From positions 1 to 40,187 of the IMG/VR virus record IMGVR_UViG_3300023106_000020: a stretch of DNA of 40,187 bases; one strand, written 5' to 3'. The translations under genes and the position numbers were made by a program. The DNA is from a virus. Shown piece by piece: positions 13,234 to 23,117 of the stretch; positions within the stretch are counted from its first letter, which is position 1; every line of letters starts with the position of its first letter. The notes under the pieces were generated by a model. It did not search any database. It was not told where the DNA came from and saw only the letters and a program-made list of their open reading frames with translations.

Positions 13234-14961
13234 TCACTGCGGAGGTGGGTTGCTCGGATCATCCGTGGCAGCGGCCGTCAATATGGGCGCGCCTCTCGCG
13301 CCATAGCGAAGAAGCTGCGCAGCCCTTTGCGCGGTTAACCCCGGCTGACGTGCCATTAGGCCACGGATAGCGGCTTGCACAGGCTGGCTGTAGAGGGCGG
13401 CCCCAGCCCCAAGTCCACCGACCCCGGCAAGCGCCCCGACCTTCCCACCGACCGCTCCCGCGCCCAAGGCGGCTAGCATAGCCAAGCTGTTGACGTCCTT
13501 CGAACCGCCCTGCGCAGCGTTGTTGGTCATTACTTGCTGCCCTGCACTTGCAAGGTCTTGATCAAGTGCTTGCCCCCGCGCCGACTGACGGCGCCGAACA
13601 GAAGTGTCCGAGTTGCGCACAGCAGCCCCATACTGAGCAGGCGAGGCTACCCCGTCCGCTGGAGACGCTGCGGCCTTCTCTACGCGAACCAAGCTAGCGT
13701 AGCCGCGGTCGATATCGCGCAGCCGGGCTGCATCGCGCGGGTTTTGCCGACGCGCCAGGCTATGCAACTGCTGCCGGAATTGCTCGGTGATATCTCCGAC
13801 CATGCGCGTATAAGGATCGTCGCTACGCCTCCAGCCGGTTGCCAAATCTGACAGCCGCTCGGACGCATCGCGCAGTGTGCGGCCGCTGTAATAGCCGTTT
13901 GGTCCAGACCTTTGGAAAGCATTCCCAAGCTCAGCCTGAGCTTGGTCGAGCAGGTTGTCGTATTCAGCCGGCAACCTTGCGCGCTGGCGAATGGTATTGA
14001 CGCGAGTTTGGAATGTCTGGTCGAGCCCCCCACTCAACCGTGGCAAGACGTCGCTATACGCAGCCCGCAAGCGGTCACCCGCGAATGCGACTGCGTCGTG
14101 GCCGGCTTCCGTGCCGCCTGGCAACCTCTCTCCGATCGGCCGAAGCGCGCGGTTGACTGCTGCCCTGTTCAAGTCCTCAGTGGCACGGCGTTGCGCGCCC
14201 CCGACCATGCCCTGGATGATCGGCACCGTGGCGGCGATATCCTCCACCCGCTTGATACCGCGCCCCAGCCGGCCACCTTGGCCTGCTATCTGTCCGGTCG
14301 TGAGACGGACACCCTCGTCCAGTAGCGTGCGGACATTCCCCGGAAGTTGGGGAGCGGCGAGCGAAGCAATGCCGCGCATCGCCGTGTCGCCGATGGCGCC
14401 TCCGACCGCGCCGATTGCCGCGTCTTTTGCTACACCTAGCGCGTTGTCCGAATTGGACAGCAATGCGCCGCTTGCAGCTCCTTGGGCGAGAGCCCCGCCG
14501 CGCATTGCTGCTGCAGGCAAAAGAGCCGCTGATTCACCTACGAAGTTGCCGATGCCGCGCAGAGTACCCATGCCCTCCGCAGCAGGCGCGACTTGACCGG
14601 TCAGATCATTCTTGCCGCCACCATTGATAGCGTCTCCCCACTTGCCGCCTCCAACCGTCTCGCCGATCGCGTTCAAGCCGGACTGCGCCCAATCCGCGGC
14701 GTGGTCGAGGACGTTGGCACCACCTTCGAGGACGCCACGCCCCATCTCTGCGACGCCGCTGCCGATGTCCGACAACAGCGCATTCTCGGGATCTTGTGCG
14801 GCAGGTGCGCGAGCCGGTGCACGCGTCTCGATCGCGCTATTCCCAAACTGACCGCCGAGATGTTGACGGATGATCCCGTTTACATCCTCTTCGGTAGCGC
14901 CTTCGGGCGCTTCGATCTCGAACGACTTCCCGTCCGGCGTGTCGATCTTGAACTTGCCCAT
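13234..14961 (-). CDS. Internal virion / DNA-ejection protein, 575 residues
   Basis: The N-terminus FKIDTPDGKSFEIEAPEGAT followed by EEDVNGIIRQHL is a short motif found at the start of many podovirus internal and tail proteins. The rest is mostly helical and Ala/Gly-rich, with glycine-zipper-like segments (ALLPAAAMRGGALAQGAASG, ALGAGAVGGKVGALAGVGGL) able to enter or cross membranes. In P22-like phages such proteins are ejected with DNA and form a channel across the envelope. Position next to the transglycosylase protein supports this. No close named homologue is recognised. Confidence 0.65.
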   Translation of the reverse strand: MGKFKIDTPDGKSFEIEAPEGATEEDVNGIIRQHLGGQFGNSAIETRAPARAPAAQDPENALLSDIGSGVAEMGRGVLEGGANVLDHAADWAQSGLNAIGETVGGGKWGDAINGGGKNDLTGQVAPAAEGMGTLRGIGNFVGESAALLPAAAMRGGALAQGAASGALLSNSDNALGVAKDAAIGAVGGAIGDTAMRGIASLAAPQLPGNVRTLLDEGVRLTTGQIAGQGGRLGRGIKRVEDIAATVPIIQGMVGGAQRRATEDLNRAAVNRALRPIGERLPGGTEAGHDAVAFAGDRLRAAYSDVLPRLSGGLDQTFQTRVNTIRQRARLPAEYDNLLDQAQAELGNAFQRSGPNGYYSGRTLRDASERLSDLATGWRRSDDPYTRMVGDITEQFRQQLHSLARRQNPRDAARLRDIDRGYASLVRVEKAAASPADGVASPAQYGAAVRNSDTSVRRRQSARGQALDQDLASAGQQVMTNNAAQGGSKDVNSLAMLAALGAGAVGGKVGALAGVGGLGAGAALYSQPVQAAIRGLMARQPGLTAQRAAQLLRYGARGAPILTAAATDDPSNPPPQ

Positions 14962-16721
14962 TATTTCACCCGCGTGATGGTGTAGCCGTTGATCTTGGAC
15001 GACTGCCCTACGCCGATCGCGGCAGAAGCGCGCGGCTTGTCGGGCGTGTACGTGCGCGCAACACGCTCCGGATTGATACCGTTATCTCGTGCGTATCCTC
15101 GGTAATTCTCGGCGACCGAGTTGTACGTTTCCCTATAGTTCTGATAATTCGTATAGGCTGCTTTCACCATGTTACGGCGCTGTTCCGCGTTCAAGCGGTG
15201 GCCATTGATTGCCCGATTGTAGGTGTTCCGAACCGTGTCATCCAACCCGCCAGAGTTTTGCGCAGTCGCAAACTCGCCTTCGCGCACGACTGAGCTAGGG
15301 TCCAAGACCTTCATGTAGTTGAAGATCAACGCAATATCGTCTTGCGGCGTCGGGTTCTTTTTCATGCCGAGATCGCGCAACGTGTTGAACTGCTGGCGCG
15401 CACTCTTGAACGTCTTAACCTCCGGCAGTGCGTCGAACTCCTTGCGGTAATCCGCCTCCGCTTTGCGATTGCTCTGAACGTTGCGGCTGGTCGAGGTCGC
15501 AGGGTCGGCAGGACCACCGCGGATAGGGCGCAAGGCATCGCCGTTCCACTCGTACCCGCTCGGTGCGTCGCGCGTCTTGGAGCGAGGCGGGCGCACGTTG
15601 ATGACGCCGGGGTTCCCACCCTGTGGCTGACCACCGCCGAGCCGCGACGTGTTCTTGGCGACATAGGCCTGTGTCTCGGAAGGCAGCGCCGACAGCCAGT
15701 TGTCCCCATTCTGCTGGATCGCGCGATCGACGCGACCGGGACCGGCATTGTACGCCGCCCAAGCCTTCGCCGGGTCGCCATACTTCTGGACCATCGCCGC
15801 AAGATACTCGCGACCGACGCGGTTCTTTTCCTCCACGCTGCCATCGCGAACGGGCGCGACACCGTAGCCGGGATCCGCCTGCGTGCCCGGCATCGTCTGC
15901 ATAGCGCCCTGTGCGCCCTTGGGAGACGTCACTAGCTGACCGTTAGGGAGATAGTCGCGGTTGCCGCTCTCCGACTGCGCGGTGATGCCCACCATCGCCG
16001 ACATCGGCCCGCCTGCGCCCATCTGCGGCATACCAGCGCCGGGCGCATACCCGGGCTGTGGCATTGCCGCGGGACCAGTCCCCGTGCCGGGCTTCATCAG
16101 CCACGAACCGCTTTCGCTGTCGAAGATGTAGTCGGGGTTGTTCGGCTTGGGGTTTTCGGCGATCAGCTGGTCACCGGACATGCGGCGCGCGCCCGGTGCA
16201 AGCGTGTAGGGCTCGGCAGCCTTGAGACGAGCGGCGACGGCCTGCTTGCCTGCTGCGGAAAGCTGGTACTGCAGGTTTAGCCCTTCGTCGGACCAATCCA
16301 TCTGGGCGAGCTGCTGGGGCGTAAAGCCCGCCTGTGCGAGGACCTGCGACCCGACTGCCGCGCGCTGTTCTGGCGGAAGGGCAAGCAACTGCGGGTGAAG
16401 GTTGCCCACGACATCTGCCTGATGCGCGAACTCCTTCAACTGGTCGTCGCGCAGTCCGCCAAGCGCATTGGCGAACTCCATATCCCCACCGAGCGCAGCT
16501 TCCTGGCGAGCGCCCGCAAAGTCGCCGGTGCGCGCTCGAGCAGCCAAGCCGGTCCGCGCCTGGTCCTGCTGCTTCTGGCGGCCGAACACGTAATCCTGCT
16601 GCTGCGCGCGGGTCTGCGCCAACCGCGCCTGTTGCTCATTCAGCCGCATCTGCTGGTCGCGTGATGCTTCCTCGCCGTATGCCTGCAGCGTGCGGATACC
16701 GAGGTTGAAGTCGATCGCCAT
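14961..16721 (-). CDS. Internal virion protein with lytic transglycosylase domain
   Basis: A 586-residue protein. Residues 1-180 are helical and Gln-rich, and a Pro/Gly linker follows (about 205-240). Residues 240-350 form a lytic transglycosylase (SLT) domain: catalytic Glu251 in ITAQSESGNRDY, then GAQGAMQTMPGT (269-280) and AAYNAGPGRVD (322-332). The remaining C-terminal part is helical. Such virion proteins locally cut peptidoglycan so the ejection channel can cross the cell wall. Its stop and the next start overlap as TAATG. The domain is certain; ejection use is known for the family. Confidence 0.85.
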   Translation of the reverse strand: MAIDFNLGIRTLQAYGEEASRDQQMRLNEQQARLAQTRAQQQDYVFGRQKQQDQARTGLAARARTGDFAGARQEAALGGDMEFANALGGLRDDQLKEFAHQADVVGNLHPQLLALPPEQRAAVGSQVLAQAGFTPQQLAQMDWSDEGLNLQYQLSAAGKQAVAARLKAAEPYTLAPGARRMSGDQLIAENPKPNNPDYIFDSESGSWLMKPGTGTGPAAMPQPGYAPGAGMPQMGAGGPMSAMVGITAQSESGNRDYLPNGQLVTSPKGAQGAMQTMPGTQADPGYGVAPVRDGSVEEKNRVGREYLAAMVQKYGDPAKAWAAYNAGPGRVDRAIQQNGDNWLSALPSETQAYVAKNTSRLGGGQPQGGNPGVINVRPPRSKTRDAPSGYEWNGDALRPIRGGPADPATSTSRNVQSNRKAEADYRKEFDALPEVKTFKSARQQFNTLRDLGMKKNPTPQDDIALIFNYMKVLDPSSVVREGEFATAQNSGGLDDTVRNTYNRAINGHRLNAEQRRNMVKAAYTNYQNYRETYNSVAENYRGYARDNGINPERVARTYTPDKPRASAAIGVGQSSKINGYTITRVK

Positions 16722-17441: not shown

Positions 17442-18059
17442 TCAAACATCGGGTTCGACGGCGAACTTGGCGACGACATAGCCCGGTCGGCGCGGCCCTT
17501 CGCCGCCGTCTGCGGTGCCCGTAGCGGGGATCTCGACGGCTCCGACCACATGCGTATCGCCAGTCTGCACAGGCGGAGTTGTCGAAACGACGTAGGTGAC
17601 CGTCCCGCCAGACCGATCGGCATCCACGTAGGATACGTAATCCACATCCGTGCTCGCGGTCGCTGCAGCCGTTCCGCCGGTGACCGATGCCGTCGTGCCA
17701 TCCGCGTACATGCGGGTATGCGAGGCAATCGTGATCGTCGTGGTGGATGCTGTCAGGACGCTTGCCGGCTCGATGTAGCTGTTCACTAGCGCCTGTTCGC
17801 GCTTCTGGGCATCAGTGGACGTCTGTGCGCCTACCGCGGCCGTGTTGGCGGCTGCAGCGGCTGCCTGCGCCGCCTGCGTCGCCTCGTCCAGATTTTCCAG
17901 CGCCGCCTGGATCTCGGGGATCTGCGCCAGCGTGTTCAGCGCCTCGCCGAGCGTCTTGAACGCATCGTTGAGGCTGCGCAGGGCTGCCGGGGAGAAACGC
18001 CCATCGGAATCCACAACGACCTGCGTCTGCTGGAACGACGGGATGCGGACGAACACCAT
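17442..18059 (-). CDS. Virion-associated protein with coiled coil, 205 residues
   Basis: Residues 20-90 form an Ala/Gln-rich coiled coil (LGEALNTLAQIPEIQAALEN, then QAAQAAAAAANTAA). From about residue 100 the sequence becomes beta-rich and Thr/Val-rich (ASTTTITIASHTRMYADGTT). A helical stem plus beta head fits a small trimeric fibre or needle-like tail part; P22 gp26 occupies a similar place in the gene order. No sequence match is evident, so this is position-based. Its start overlaps the gp10-like stop by 1 nt. Confidence 0.55.
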   Translation of the reverse strand: MVFVRIPSFQQTQVVVDSDGRFSPAALRSLNDAFKTLGEALNTLAQIPEIQAALENLDEATQAAQAAAAAANTAAVGAQTSTDAQKREQALVNSYIEPASVLTASTTTITIASHTRMYADGTTASVTGGTAAATASTDVDYVSYVDADRSGGTVTYVVSTTPPVQTGDTHVVGAVEIPATGTADGGEGPRRPGYVVAKFAVEPDV

Positions 18060-19375
18060 CAGCGCCAGCCCTCGTTTGCCATCATGCCGGCGATGCGAAT
18101 ACGCACCGGCTCCACGCAGCTGATCTCGTAGGAGCGATAGGGCTGGTCGGGTGAGCCCAGCCGCCAGAGCGTGCCGACATCGAACGGCGCGCGGACAAGG
18201 AGCTCTTCGTAGAACGCGGGGTAATCGTCCTGTCCATCCTTCCAGCGCAGGCGGATCGTGCAGTCGACCGAAGACCCGGTGCCGATCGACACGCTGTCGT
18301 TCCGTGGCGGCTTGCCGAGCATCGGCACGGTCGCAGTCACGGTCCGCTCGATCACGGCGCCGTCATCGGTCATGGCGTCCGCATCGACACGCCAGAGCCG
18401 ACTGTCGACCGCGGACCCGACGATGGTCTCGCCTGCCTCCTGATAACCCACCAGCACCGGCCAGGTGAACTCGCTCCAGACCTGCGTCGAGGCGTCATAG
18501 GCCAGCACGCCTTGCCCGGGCACACGCAGCACGTAGAAGCTGTGCCCATCCATGCTGTAGACCCATGCCGAGCAGGGTGACGTTGCCTTGCGGATACGCT
18601 CGGCAATACCCGGGTCGCTGATCACCTGCGGCACCGACGACGCCCGATATACCTGATAGTCGTCGCCGACCCACACCAGCGTGTTGTCGAACCGCCGCAC
18701 GGTATCGCGGGCGAGGCAGCCACGTTCGAAGTTGCGGCCCGACGCGCGTTGAAACGGTGCATCGAGGTCGCCGGTTGGCTGCCATACTTCGACGTTCTGC
18801 GTGCCGAAGATCCAGAACTCGTCACCCAGCCGGCGCACAGCAACCGCCTTGTCGGGCAGGCTCTCCGCGGTCGCGAAGTTGAGCGGGTCGATCGTAGTCT
18901 CGCCAGGGACCAGCCAGTAGAAACGCCCGTTGGGCAGCAGTACGATGCCGTACGCGTTGAGCTGGTCGACGTCCTGCACGAACCCGCCAGACGGCGCATC
19001 GTCAGGCAACTCCAGCGTGATGATGCTCGTATCGTAGAGGTAAGCGATCCCGCCGCCGGCGATGATGCTGGCGAACGGCGTCGACACCAAGGCAGCGATC
19101 CCCGACCCGGCAATGGTGCCCTGCGGCTGCTCGGTGGAGTACAGCGTGTTACCCGCGACCACGAGGCGCTCGCCCGTTGCCGTGCGGTAGTGCACCCCCC
19201 GCATGAGCCCCGTATAGCTCGCGATGCGCGTCAGGCCCGGTCGCTGGATACGCAACGTCTGGTCCGGGCTGATCCCGCTCATGTCCTTCTCGAGGTACAT
19301 ATTGCGCAGCACCACGTCCGGTACGAGACCGTCCGCGCGCTTGAAGCTGCCGATGCCGAGAGGGACGATAGGCAT
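18059..19375 (-). CDS. P22 gp10-like packaged-DNA stabilisation / tail hub protein
   Basis: A 438-residue protein from ATG 19375, overlapping the previous TAA as TAATG. It follows the P22 gp10 pattern: MPIVPLGIGSFKRADGLVPD, NMYLEKDMSG, RPGLTRIASYTGLMRGVHYR, TGERLVVAGNTLYS, then repeated beta-propeller-like strands and VLAYDASTQVWSEFTW. gp10 plugs the tail after DNA packaging and carries the needle and tailspikes. The length is close to P22 gp10 (472). The frame stays open upstream to 19834, but that part is a shadow of the next gene. Confidence 0.85.
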   Translation of the reverse strand: MPIVPLGIGSFKRADGLVPDVVLRNMYLEKDMSGISPDQTLRIQRPGLTRIASYTGLMRGVHYRTATGERLVVAGNTLYSTEQPQGTIAGSGIAALVSTPFASIIAGGGIAYLYDTSIITLELPDDAPSGGFVQDVDQLNAYGIVLLPNGRFYWLVPGETTIDPLNFATAESLPDKAVAVRRLGDEFWIFGTQNVEVWQPTGDLDAPFQRASGRNFERGCLARDTVRRFDNTLVWVGDDYQVYRASSVPQVISDPGIAERIRKATSPCSAWVYSMDGHSFYVLRVPGQGVLAYDASTQVWSEFTWPVLVGYQEAGETIVGSAVDSRLWRVDADAMTDDGAVIERTVTATVPMLGKPPRNDSVSIGTGSSVDCTIRLRWKDGQDDYPAFYEELLVRAPFDVGTLWRLGSPDQPYRSYEISCVEPVRIRIAGMMANEGWR

Positions 19376-19818
19376 TAGGGCTCCAGTGCCGTGCAATGTA
19401 CATTGATGGTACCCGGTGCGGGGTTGAAGCCGATCGCGCCCGTCAGCAGCCCGAACAGCCCGGCCGTCTGCCGCTTGACGCGGAACACGCACTGAGTGTT
19501 CGTGGGGACGCCGGTGATCTGCACGTTGTAGCTGTCGAGAGCGCTGTCTGCCGGATCCTCGGCGATGCCGTTGCAGATCGGCACTACACCCGTAGCGAAT
19601 GGCGTAGGATAGACCCAGGTGAACGTCGCGGTGTTCACGCCGGTCATGCGTTGCTTGCGCGCCTTGCTGGCGTGTGTGTGGTCTGCACGGGCATAGGGCG
19701 ACTGGCTTCCTACCGCGCCAGCGTCCGACACACCCGGGGGCATCGTGGTCGCCGGCTTCGGTATCGCAGCCTGTAGCGCGCTGATATCCGGGGCAGGGGT
19801 GTAAGCAACGCCACTCAT
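19375..19818 (-). CDS. Small tail-fibre-like virion protein, 147 residues
   Basis: The segment PPGVSDAGAVGSQSPYARAD followed by HTHASKARKQRM is a module found in many phage fibre and appendage proteins. After it comes a beta-rich domain (TGVNTATFTWVYPTPFATGV, VQITGVPTNTQCVFRVKR). The gene lies between the PhoD-like and gp10-like genes, so it is most likely a virion appendage or head fibre. Its stop overlaps the gp10-like start. Confidence 0.6.
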   Translation of the reverse strand: MSGVAYTPAPDISALQAAIPKPATTMPPGVSDAGAVGSQSPYARADHTHASKARKQRMTGVNTATFTWVYPTPFATGVVPICNGIAEDPADSALDSYNVQITGVPTNTQCVFRVKRQTAGLFGLLTGAIGFNPAPGTINVHCTALEP

Positions 19819-19892
19819 ACTGGTACTCCTGCATTAATCCCCGCCCACAGCAGCGCGGAAAGCGGGATGGCGGTTAGGGAGGCGCGGTTCAT
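19815..19892 (-). CDS. Possible 25-residue hydrophobic micro-protein
   Basis: A tiny frame that exactly bridges two genes: ATG 19892 overlaps the PhoD-like stop as ATGA, and its TGA (19815-19817) overlaps the next start in the same way. The product starts MNRASLTAIPLSALLWAGIN and is hydrophobic, able to form one short membrane helix. AGGAG inside its 3' end is the ribosome-binding site of the next gene. It may be a real micro-protein or only a translational bridge. Confidence 0.4.
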   Translation of the reverse strand: MNRASLTAIPLSALLWAGINAGVPV

Positions 19893-22129
19893 GGCGCCGG
19901 GCGAATAGCGACGAGGAAGATCACGTTCTCGTCGGTTGTGCCGCCTTCCCAAGCGAACGCCGTCGAGACCGCCCCCGCTGTCCCAACGACTTTTTGCCCG
20001 GTGCTGAACGAGACGAACGAGCCCCCGGTATCCAGCTTCTCCGTAAGTATCGCGAACCCGTTGGAGAAGCCGTGCGCTGTCAGGCTTGCCGTCGAGGTCG
20101 CGCTATCGCAGCCCCAGAACGCAAGGGCCAACTCATTGTTGTAAAGCGTCGTCGCCGAAACCACACCCGAGTCGCGGGTGGGCGTCGAAGCATTGACGAC
20201 CGACTTCGCGTACTGGTCGATTGGTGTGGTCGGGTGATGACCTGTTACCTCGATGACCGTGTAGCCCTTATAGACGGAGGAACCGGTTGACACGAGCGCC
20301 GATGCTTCGCCACCGGCTGCAATTTTGTAGAACACTGCGCCAGACATGCCGGTGCCGGTCAGATGCGGCGCACCCGCCGACGTGTAGCCGGACGGCGTGC
20401 CGACGGAGTTAGGGATTTTGTCCAACGCGGCGAAGATGACAATGAGGTTTCCAGCCGTTGCGGGCTTCGTCCAACTGAAATTGCCGCTTGTACCCGAGCT
20501 GCCCTGAATAGACTCGCTTGCGACGATCGAAGGGGGCGTCCCGACAGGTGCCACCGGCTCGACGGTGACAGTGACGGTGACTGTTATATCCGACGTGAGC
20601 CCAAAGGCATTCGTTGCCCTGAACACGCTCGCATAGCTGCCCGCGCTGGCCTGAGCGGGCAACGTCGCGGTGTTGCCGGAAAGCGTATGCGGTCCGCTGA
20701 TCTTCTGCCAAGTCACATAGTCGTCGGCCGTCAGCGCGGTTGCGATCGCGTTATTGGTGTACCCTGACTGCGAAGGGTTGGTGCTGATGACAGGAGCCGT
20801 CGTGTCGGCGGGCACTGCCGCGATGCTACGCGTGAAGGTGTAATCGTAGAGCGGAGTAGCGACGCGATCGCGGCGCGCCTTCCAGTTGATCGAAATCGTA
20901 TCTGCTGACGGGTACGAAATGGACATGATCGCGTACTGGTGGTTCACGGCAATAGGTGCACCCGTCCAGCCGCTGCCCTTGCTTGACAGGCCGCTGTTGA
21001 TCGGCGCGGCTTGGAATACAGGGAACCCACCGATGGTGTTCGTGCCGACCTCGTAGGCGACAGAGTGCATATCGCCGGAGATGACGCACATCCGGTTCGA
21101 CATACCGACGCCAACGACGAACGAGCCGATCTCCTGCCGCTCATCAGCGTATCCGTCCCAGCTATCCCCGAACTCGCCATCACCGCCGCGCCACGGCATC
21201 GTGCAGCCCCAGATGACGTATTCACCAGCAGTCCGCGCCGCGAGAAGCTGGTCCTTGAACCACTGCTTCTGCACCGCACCCATCATCGTCTTGTTTGGCC
21301 CGTTGGCATCTGCCGGGCTGTCGCGCATTGACCGGAGATCTGTCATGACGAACCGAACGCGACCGATCTTGTACGAGTAGTAGATCGGGTCAGCCGCACC
21401 GGCCAGAACAAGCGCGGGGGAAGGTACACGGCGGTGGTATCCTGCGATAGCAGCAAGACGCGACGGGCTGGTCTTGTTGCTGCCGTCAGGGCCGTAATCG
21501 TGATCGTCCCACATGGCGAGAATGGGGAGGTTGCGATACAAAGCCTGTGCATTCGGCTGGGTCAGCGTAGCATCATAGGCGTTCTGAAACAGTGTCTCGT
21601 TGTTGGTTCCGATGCTGTCGTAGAACTGGTCGCCCAGGTGCTGCATGAACAAAGCGCCCGACGAAAGCCACTCCTGATAAATGTTGAAGTCGTAAGTTGT
21701 AACGTTCGAACAGGATGCGTGAACGAACGAGAACGGGTAGTTGCCGGTGCCGGGCGTCTTGAACTGCCCGATCTTGATGAATGTCTCGCCCGCTGCGCGA
21801 ACGCTGTAATGATAGGTGGTGTCGGGCTGCAAGCCGGTCGCCTTCAACTTAGCCAGCCGGTACGTCGCGTCCGGCGTGACCGACGCGGAAATAACCGGGT
21901 TCGACATATCCTCCGACTGCGATACGACCATCTGCACCGGATTAGCTGCGCTGGTCATCTTGGCGGTCATGGTGACGCTGCCATCGTCAATCGCACCAAG
22001 CCATGCGTTATCGATGGGTGCCGAATTGACGGGCGTAGGCGTAGGCGTCGGGGTTGGAGTGGGGGTGCCTCCGGTCGCGACCTGCCCCGGAGCCAGCGGC
22101 CAGCCATTGCGGACCGCGCGCGACCTCAT
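19889..22129 (-). CDS. PhoD-like metallophosphoesterase in the tail gene cluster
   Basis: A 746-residue multidomain protein. A (TP)n linker (22-33) leads to a fibronectin-type PhoD_N domain (about 38-125). A calcineurin-like PhoD phosphatase follows (about 130-430) with metal motifs HASC (137-140), GDQFY (166-170), WDDHDYG (207-213) and GDMH (352-355). Then comes an Ig-like domain (about 440-525) and a beta-rich C-terminal domain (530-746). PhoD enzymes are normally secreted and cleave phosphodiesters, including wall teichoic acids. Here there is no signal peptide and the neighbours are connector and tail genes, so a virion enzyme or receptor binder is likely. Substrate unknown. Confidence 0.85.
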   Translation of the reverse strand: MRSRAVRNGWPLAPGQVATGGTPTPTPTPTPTPVNSAPIDNAWLGAIDDGSVTMTAKMTSAANPVQMVVSQSEDMSNPVISASVTPDATYRLAKLKATGLQPDTTYHYSVRAAGETFIKIGQFKTPGTGNYPFSFVHASCSNVTTYDFNIYQEWLSSGALFMQHLGDQFYDSIGTNNETLFQNAYDATLTQPNAQALYRNLPILAMWDDHDYGPDGSNKTSPSRLAAIAGYHRRVPSPALVLAGAADPIYYSYKIGRVRFVMTDLRSMRDSPADANGPNKTMMGAVQKQWFKDQLLAARTAGEYVIWGCTMPWRGGDGEFGDSWDGYADERQEIGSFVVGVGMSNRMCVISGDMHSVAYEVGTNTIGGFPVFQAAPINSGLSSKGSGWTGAPIAVNHQYAIMSISYPSADTISINWKARRDRVATPLYDYTFTRSIAAVPADTTAPVISTNPSQSGYTNNAIATALTADDYVTWQKISGPHTLSGNTATLPAQASAGSYASVFRATNAFGLTSDITVTVTVTVEPVAPVGTPPSIVASESIQGSSGTSGNFSWTKPATAGNLIVIFAALDKIPNSVGTPSGYTSAGAPHLTGTGMSGAVFYKIAAGGEASALVSTGSSVYKGYTVIEVTGHHPTTPIDQYAKSVVNASTPTRDSGVVSATTLYNNELALAFWGCDSATSTASLTAHGFSNGFAILTEKLDTGGSFVSFSTGQKVVGTAGAVSTAFAWEGGTTDENVIFLVAIRPAP

Positions 22130-22497
22130 GGAATGCGGCTCAGCGAGGCGTACAGCCCCGAAGGCGTGCCGCCGGTGATCGTTGCCCGCACAGTCGCATT
22201 GGAGCCCAAGCCGACGCCTGTGCCGCCCGTGGTGTCAGGTGCGGTCTTCGCCGCCCCGATGTTCTGGTAGGTCGTGCCGTCAGGGCTCAGCGACTGCAAC
22301 TGCACCGAGGCGCCACCGAACGTGCCGACCACCGACCAGACGTAGTCGCCGCCGTATGCCGTCTGCGCGGCCGCTGCGACGTTGTTCGTGATAAGCGCCA
22401 GCGTTTCCTGCCTGCCGCCGGTCGACAGCGGATTGCCGTCGTCATCGGACAGCCAAACCGGTAGCGCGTTGGACGAACGGTTGCGAAATCCTGGCAT
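22126..22497 (-). CDS. Hypothetical virion protein, 123 residues
   Basis: A beta-rich protein with GDYVWSVVGTFGGASVQLQS, SPDGTTYQNIG and ATVRATITGGTPSGLYASLS. This 'variance of signal' pattern is common in small structural proteins that decorate heads or fibres. It is unassigned. It lies between the gp4-like connector and the PhoD-like gene, with ATGA overlap to the latter. Confidence 0.6.
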   Translation of the reverse strand: MPGFRNRSSNALPVWLSDDDGNPLSTGGRQETLALITNNVAAAAQTAYGGDYVWSVVGTFGGASVQLQSLSPDGTTYQNIGAAKTAPDTTGGTGVGLGSNATVRATITGGTPSGLYASLSRIP

Positions 22498-23117
22498 CAG
22501 AAATACACTCCTGCAGCGGCTTCAGCACGCATCCCGTAGCGGTGCGTCATCGCGGTTTGATAGCGGGTGGCCTGGCGCACCGTCGTAGGCCCGACGTCTG
22601 CGCCGAACGTGTCGGCAAGCTCGAGCGCCAGCGCGGCAGACAACCCTTCCGGATCGCTGGCCGATCGCGGCGCCTCGTTGTCCAATTGCAGAAGCCCGAT
22701 GTCGGTCCACACGCGCAAGGCAGCGTCGTAGATCCATGTCTCGGTCTGCTGGCCGTTGGTGTCCATGATCTGGACGACCGAGCCATCACGGGGCGGCACA
22801 TGCTCGCGGCCGTAACCGTCGCATGGGCGCTCCTCTCCGTACGTCATCGGGTCGCCATACATTGGCATGAATTCCGGTAGCGTCACCGTCACGACCTCGG
22901 GATCGCGAATGATGCGCTGGTTGACGCCGGCGGTGTAATCCACGAGCGGAATCACATCCGCCAGACGCCCGAATGCCCCGGCAGCGACCCAGGAGCTGTA
23001 AAGCCCCTGAAGCGCCGCCAGGGCATCAGTCTGGTCTGCCGTACGTGGTTCACGGCCCGCACCAAGCCTACCTAGCTTGCGCAGCGCGCCGTTGATCACA
23101 GTGCGGCAAGTCGCCAT
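22497..23117 (-). CDS. P22 gp4-like head-tail connector / tail accessory factor
   Basis: A 206-residue protein. Residues 5-55 (TVINGALRKLGRLGAGREPR, then DALAALQGLYSSWVAAGAFG) match the N-terminal helices of P22 gp4-type connector proteins. Those form a dodecamer under the portal and start tail assembly. The C-terminal helix ALALELADTFGADVGPTTVR also fits. It is longer than P22 gp4 (166 residues) because of a beta insertion (about 75-150). Position between capsid and tail genes agrees. Confidence 0.75.
   Translation of the reverse strand: MATCRTVINGALRKLGRLGAGREPRTADQTDALAALQGLYSSWVAAGAFGRLADVIPLVDYTAGVNQRIIRDPEVVTVTLPEFMPMYGDPMTYGEERPCDGYGREHVPPRDGSVVQIMDTNGQQTETWIYDAALRVWTDIGLLQLDNEAPRSASDPEGLSAALALELADTFGADVGPTTVRQATRYQTAMTHRYGMRAEAAAGVYF

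Follow-up and report, generated by a model that had tools for sequence, protein, structure and literature searches.

The window, that is, the whole stretch of DNA analyzed here, spans 40,187 bases and is itself a virus record of IMG/VR. It raises the question of what a PhoD-like phosphatase does when its gene lies among those for virion morphogenesis, since phoD genes in phages are commonly taken to be auxiliary and to aid the phosphate supply of the host. The original prediction, made from the sequence alone, had placed such a gene at 19889-22129 between gp4-like and gp10-like genes, and had suggested that its product is carried by the virion and modifies the host surface, perhaps as a depolymerase or receptor-destroying enzyme. 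The gene itself was borne out: an uninterrupted ORF of 746 codons runs from 22129 to 19889 on the minus strand, a strand that the prediction had not given.

The window encodes a PhoD family protein with additional domains

The gene product is a member of the PhoD family. Residues 135-358 matched PF09423 (PhoD) with E=1.2e-25 and 90.8 bits, versus a curated Pfam cut-off of 27. The nearest solved relative by sequence was Bacillus subtilis PhoD (2yeq; phmmer E=1.6e-13), and this structure was also the top fold match of the predicted model (Foldseek E=1.2e-25, TM-score by target 0.64). The PF09423 score together with both 2yeq matches excludes a chance match. Against the NCBIfam equivalog for alkaline phosphatase PhoD (NF058638) the protein scored 40.2 bits, which is below the curated cut-off of 1000 bits. 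The gene and its parts are:

19889..22129, minus strand: PhoD-like protein, whole gene, 746 aa (PF09423 E=1.2e-25; AF2 model; Foldseek 2yeq E=1.2e-25)
22070..22129, minus strand: N-terminal tag, residues 1-20 (MRSRAVRNGWPLAPGQVATG), with GWxxxPGQ motif (motif scans and alignment)
22031..22066, minus strand: (TP)n linker, residues 22-33 (sequence; TP linkers alike in the slot enzymes of L149 and L158)
21755..21961, minus strand: Fn3-like PhoD_N / purple acid phosphatase N-terminal domain, residues 57-125 (PF16656 E=1.3e-8, PF16655 E=3.2e-6)
20825..21742, minus strand: PhoD catalytic domain, residues 130-435 (pLDDT ~95; metal ligands by alignment)
20555..20797, minus strand: Ig-like domain, residues about 445-525 (predicted beta strands, pLDDT ~83; full-length homologue L012)
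19892..20539, minus strand: C-terminal all-beta domain, residues 531-746 (pLDDT 85, pTM 0.87)

The unit formed by PhoD_N and the catalytic domain (residues 39-435) was modelled by AlphaFold with a pLDDT of ~95. The proposal that a PhoD_N-type domain precedes the catalytic core held for Pur_ac_phosph_N, which scored above its cut-off (35.7 versus 30 bits), but PhoD_N remained slightly below its own (28 versus 30 bits). The Ig-like and C-terminal beta domains that had been placed after the core are both predicted. Other phage PhoDs begin with a homologue of the C-terminal beta domain (hhalign 98.3%, E=1.8e-14), and its presence at opposite ends of phage PhoDs argues that it is a mobile module. 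When used as the sole query this domain recovered few loci, and no PDB structure matched its fold at E<=1e-3. It is also present in phage proteins of loci L173 (3143-6139) and L174 (3749-4561), near genes that were read by eye as capsid and head-tail connector genes.

As had been predicted, a signal-peptide heuristic detected no hydrophobic segment near the N-terminus; a signal peptide is typical of bacterial PF09423 members and lies outside the Pfam definition. The GC content of the catalytic part is 59.2%, versus 63.4% for the genome, which is consistent with import into the phage genome.

Most metal ligands of PhoD are conserved

The window PhoD contains the motifs GDQFY (residues 166-170), WDDHDYG (207-213) and GDMH (352-355), plus Cys140. 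According to the alignment, the Fe and CaA ligands are complete (C140, D167, Y170, D208, D209, D353 and H355), and the two CaB positions are occupied by D215, a conservative replacement, and G216, a non-conservative one. Hence, the claim that all metal-binding motifs are present was correct for the three motifs but slightly overstated, because in B. subtilis PhoD the residue aligned with Gly216 is the CaB ligand Asn272. Glycine occupies the equivalent position in 2/26 viral and 4/32 bacterial relatives. Ligands C180, D207, D265, D266, N271, N272 and D436 of the B. subtilis enzyme have been tested by mutation, and N272A abolished its activity (PMC4223295); Y210 and H438 are assigned as ligands by position. 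The metal site of the window PhoD is probably functional, though not certainly so because of Gly216. A phage enzyme, PhoD22, hydrolysed pNPP (PMC10987575), an activity that is compatible with a virion enzyme as well as with phosphate acquisition.

The gene lies in the adaptor-nozzle slot of a Pam1-like phage

The best cultured match of the window is Pseudanabaena phage Pam1, with 40.6% identity over 77% of the portal; the Pan3 portal is 35.7% identical. For both the portal and the gp10-like protein the nearest relatives are the short-tailed cyanophages Pam1 and Pan3, and the gene order agrees with that of Pam1. By these comparisons the phage is a distant Pam1 relative and predicted to be short-tailed (a podovirus), so that Pam1-like fits better than the label P22-like given to it before. 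The genes surrounding phoD are:

22497..23117, minus strand: gp4-like head-tail adaptor, upstream border of the slot (phrog_12985 E=1.9e-5; synteny with the Pam1 adaptor)
22126..22497, minus strand: s123, 123 aa, directly before the PhoD gene with ATGA overlap; proposed display base (homologues ahead of hydrolase genes)
19375..19818, minus strand: f147, 147 aa, short fibre-type protein with DHTHASK motif, after the PhoD gene (tblastn matches)
18059..19375, minus strand: gp10-like nozzle / head closure Hc3, downstream border of the slot (phrog_578 E=1.1e-62; start set by the TAATG junction)

PhoD is thus encoded between the adaptor and nozzle genes, within the virion morphogenesis module. Both gp4-like and gp10-like neighbours were confirmed; the two small genes that flank phoD within the slot (22126-22497 and 19375-19818) had been missed. 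The phrog_12985 match of the adaptor covers its N-terminal 46 residues only and concerns a family of unknown function; the adaptor is 33-64% conserved at the same position in Pam1-like relatives. For f147, tblastn matches were obtained in the slots of L141, L148, L150, L151, L160, L162, L163 and L164 and also in L179, with no match among cultured phages. Elsewhere in the window (14961-16721), after an ejection-type gene, a 586-aa protein with an SLT transglycosylase domain (PF01464 2.9e-10) is encoded, probably an ejected wall-degrading protein.

In none of 30 metagenomic relatives, gathered from IMG/VR by a gp10 search, does the slot contain PhoD, in line with the suspicion that the arrangement is novel. 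Pam1, L142 and L152 have an empty slot; elsewhere its content measures 0.6-4.9 kb. A Pfam search of ten large ORFs in the slots of nine relatives revealed GDSL lipases (L149, 1.9e-10; L168, 1.6e-10; weakly in L146), SASA (sialate-type) esterases (L159, 3.4e-29; L158, 4.8e-10), a BNR sialidase-like protein (L153, 1.5e-6), a LamG lectin domain (L162), an Ig domain (L163) and DUF1996 (L149); one ORF gave no Pfam match. Lectin-type cargo is present in the slots of L155 and L162. The varied cargo and the shared TP linkers form the pattern expected of a slot for exchangeable surface enzymes. The Pam1-like slot is hypervariable in general, with esterases, lectin-like, collagen-repeat and DUF1996 proteins (L146/L147 4544-8004, L149 3127-7991, L158, L159, L162, L163 and L168).

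s123 recurs next to tagged hydrolases

In Rhizobium phage RHEph04 an s123 homologue is encoded directly 5' of an untagged SGNH esterase annotated as lysophospholipase L1-like. In Caulobacter phage BL198 the homologue (gp052) lies directly 5' of gp053, a tagged GDSL protein (5.9e-8) whose start, ...LGWSFGPGQV, is like the PhoD tag. Homologues in L179, L186 and L146 also precede tagged ORFs. In L186 the tagged ORF is a polysaccharide deacetylase (1.1e-8), followed by gp10; L179, identified in a scan with s123 only, has s123, then an SGNH-like protein (so read by eye, without a Pfam match) with ...AGWVTAPGQ, and then a second short ORF with ...LGWPVAPGQ. Because relatives of s123 occur in Rhizobium and Caulobacter phages, the host may be an alphaproteobacterium. 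The s123 family consists of small beta-type proteins, encoded repeatedly ahead of hydrolase genes in podoviruses and RHEph04, with homologues in L176, L177, L179 and L186.

The window has the same arrangement, with an s123-type gene directly upstream and GWxxxPGQ, here GWPLAPGQ, within the first ~20 residues of PhoD. GW[PVS]xx[PSG]GQ was matched only six times (the window and its own copy taken as one) in the six-frame ORFs of 180 loci, 3.2 million residues in all, and each time beside an s123-type gene. GWP[LV]APGQ was scanned for in 2.9 million viral contigs after the motif had been defined, the motif having been derived from the cassette phages themselves, and gave 13 DNA matches: seven out of ORF frame, three mid-ORF and three near an ORF start. 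The latter (residues 11-12) belong to L183 (the same as L179), L184, whose 1.1 kb contig is too short to cover the upstream gene, and L186, and all three are slot-type ORFs. The long form of the tag, WPLxPGQVATGG, had no match in the pattern scan. The recurrence of the tag in these scans, in about six independent cases, indicates that it is more than coincidence. The tag may dock onto s123 or the particle, and we propose that s123 and the tagged ORF would constitute a two-gene display cassette in which PhoD is one interchangeable enzyme. More tentatively, and with somewhat less than even odds in our estimate, unrelated phages would share this as a portable system: s123, bound to the particle, would capture any GWxxxPGQ-tagged enzyme, and hydrolases would be swapped to fit the host surface. 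In either form, the pairing is a testable hypothesis for how interchangeable enzymes are attached to a phage particle.

PhoD in other phages is mostly encoded near virion genes

Phage PhoD itself is already known. It makes up three PHROG families (phrog_13624, phrog_24476 and phrog_25497) and occurs in 65 phage records and 50 viral contigs, and it was the commonest phosphate-acquisition auxiliary metabolic gene (AMG) in a survey of soil phages (PMC10987575). These records, and the PhoD genes that Microbacterium and Thermobifida phages carry in their structural modules, limit the claimed novelty to the slot. Among 29 viral PhoD loci with a scanned neighbour, 18 gave a functionally annotated one, and for 16/18 this is a tail, head or connector gene. 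The full PhoD-Ig-beta architecture occurs among the tail fibre genes of an unrelated siphovirus, L012. PhoD is encoded between capsid and head-tail genes in Microbacterium phages Hortus1 and Rowlf, after the tape measure and a tail gene in Thermobifida phage P1312, and outside structural modules in Streptomyces and jumbo Microbacterium phages. In cyanophages Dfl-JY23, Elbi and YongM (L003, L004 and L009) PhoD lies in a small operon, and the next gene is annotated as capsid fiber protein in 2/3. Fadolivirus and Klosneuvirus, both giant viruses, encode PhoD-like proteins as well (BFVD). In L021 (2982-9365), on a 211-kb viral contig, a PhoD domain ends a 2127-aa protein, with an RNA-ligase-like gene upstream.

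The signal-peptide heuristic, which is crude, was positive for 6/45 viral versus 41/76 bacterial PhoDs. Most of the six viral positives are internal in-frame starts of long proteins, although the one in L019 could be real; by this measure no convincing signal peptide was found in phage PhoDs. In a tree of 50 viral and 75 bacterial tips, six viral/bacterial changes suffice and the two groups are largely separate. Because the window tip has low local support and phage sequences served as seeds for the sampling, the tree is read for this separation and not for the direction of transfer. We considered a recent single capture from bacteria but did not adopt it: only six changes are needed, and 2/4 bacterial tips within phage clades are prophages. 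The 'bacterial' PhoDs L137 (Actinomadura litoris) and L119 (a Chloroflexi MAG) are encoded by prophages, within the tail module and immediately behind tape measure and tail genes.

A literature search for virion proteomics of a PhoD protein yielded P1312 only. In its LC-MS/MS table the PhoD row (ORF22) has no coverage value (PMC4569894), which neither supports virion PhoD nor rules it out, as several tail proteins likewise have none. The 'phosphoesterase' detected with P318 virions was discarded as a PhoD example, as its authors list it as a nucleotide enzyme, and the papers on Acinetobacter phage AJO2 and Serratia phage eta had no bearing on the question.

A virion-displayed phosphoesterase is the preferred explanation

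Our preferred reading, to which we assign a probability of roughly 60%, is that the window PhoD is a virion-displayed phosphoesterase that s123 and the tag would anchor near the neck or tail and that would cleave phosphoesters of the host envelope. This reading is supported by the slot position, the coupling to s123, the swappable cargo, the recurrence of the cassette, the architecture of L012, the virion genes next to other phage PhoDs, the rarity of signal peptides among these and the activity of PhoD22. Against it count the P1312 table with no coverage value for PhoD, the Streptomyces and jumbo Microbacterium phages whose PhoD lies elsewhere than in structural modules, Gly216 at a CaB position, and the small number of tag cases. 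The surface-modifying enzyme of the original prediction draws support from the slot, its hydrolase cargo, the shared tag, the virion-type beta domains and the lack of a signal peptide. In the proposed mechanism, s123 and the GWPLAPGQ tag, followed by the flexible TP linker, would hold PhoD near the neck or tail of the Pam1-like podovirus, and the Ig-like domain and the C-terminal beta domain would serve as spacer or surface-binding parts. On contact PhoD would hydrolyse phosphate esters or diesters in the capsule, LPS or phospholipid of the host envelope, which would help the phage to reach or release its receptor. The gene, its domains, most metal ligands, the slot position and the recurrence of the cassette with other hydrolases are observed; we infer the attachment through s123 and the tag, the presence on the particle, the enzyme activity and the substrate.

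The same metal site can be read differently. If the PhoD fold were a structural or receptor-binding module, catalytically weak or dead, that binds a phosphorylated surface ligand, then Gly216, the attached Ig and beta domains and the lectin-type cargo of two sister slots (L155 and L162) would all fit; the fully kept Fe and CaA ligands, the predominance of hydrolases among sister cargoes and the activity of a related phage PhoD (PMC10987575) argue against this, and we consider it improbable. Slightly less probable still is an auxiliary metabolic role, in which the enzyme, once released, would supply the infected host with phosphate cleaved from organic phosphorus. The frequency of PhoD among phosphate-acquisition AMGs of soil phages, one of them active on pNPP (PMC10987575), and the location of some phage PhoD genes in accessory regions fit such a role. 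However, no export signal that would provide a signal-peptide route out of the cell was found in the window PhoD, its start overlaps the upstream gene within a morphogenesis-module operon, the slots of relatives hold glycan and lipid esterases rather than phosphate genes, and phage PhoDs carry virion-type beta domains.

Least probable, at long odds, is an intracellular or lysis-stage role, i.e. nuclease-like superinfection exclusion or breakdown of wall polymers, along the lines of the DNA degradation or teichoic acid hydrolysis that the P1312 authors proposed for ORF22 (PMC4569894). Those authors assumed secretion, but neither the window PhoD nor the P1312 sequence has a signal-peptide-like N-terminus; moreover, the window gene lies outside a lysis or early module, and its portal and gp10 relatives are podoviruses of Gram-negative type.

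Overall, the original interpretation is partly supported. What would be new with the virion-displayed phosphoesterase is a virion hydrolase with PhoD chemistry together with a possible portable display cassette. Phosphoester cleavage would be uncommon chemistry for a virion-attached enzyme. Gene positions and domain designs suggest that many phage PhoDs are virion enzymes, which would change how these genes are interpreted in viromes.

Comparison with known systems

The window PhoD shares its catalytic fold and Fe/CaA ligands with B. subtilis PhoD (2yeq). Unlike that enzyme, it has no secretion signal, has Gly at one CaB position and is encoded in a phage morphogenesis operon, and the tag, linker, Ig and beta domains are additional. 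The PhoDs of the three PHROG families (from Streptomyces, Thermobifida and Microbacterium phages and cyanophages) share the core, have no obvious signal peptide and often adjoin virion genes. They also have the beta domain, in several of them at the opposite end, but they are only 24-35% identical, belong to other phage types, and none combines s123 with the GWxxxPGQ tag. L012 (IMGVR_UViG_3300027653_000055) has the same PhoD_N-PhoD-Ig-beta architecture, with 33% identity over residues 43-742; it differs in its N-terminus and in its location, a siphovirus operon for tail fibres that follows the gene for a gpJ-like protein. BL198 gp052-gp053 and L186 resemble the window in having an s123-type gene immediately ahead of an N-terminally tagged hydrolase, but where the window has PhoD they have a GDSL esterase or a polysaccharide deacetylase. 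Finally, Pam1 has the same order of portal, scaffold, coat, cement, adaptor and nozzle genes, and the adaptor-nozzle slot that is empty in Pam1 is filled by PhoD in the window.
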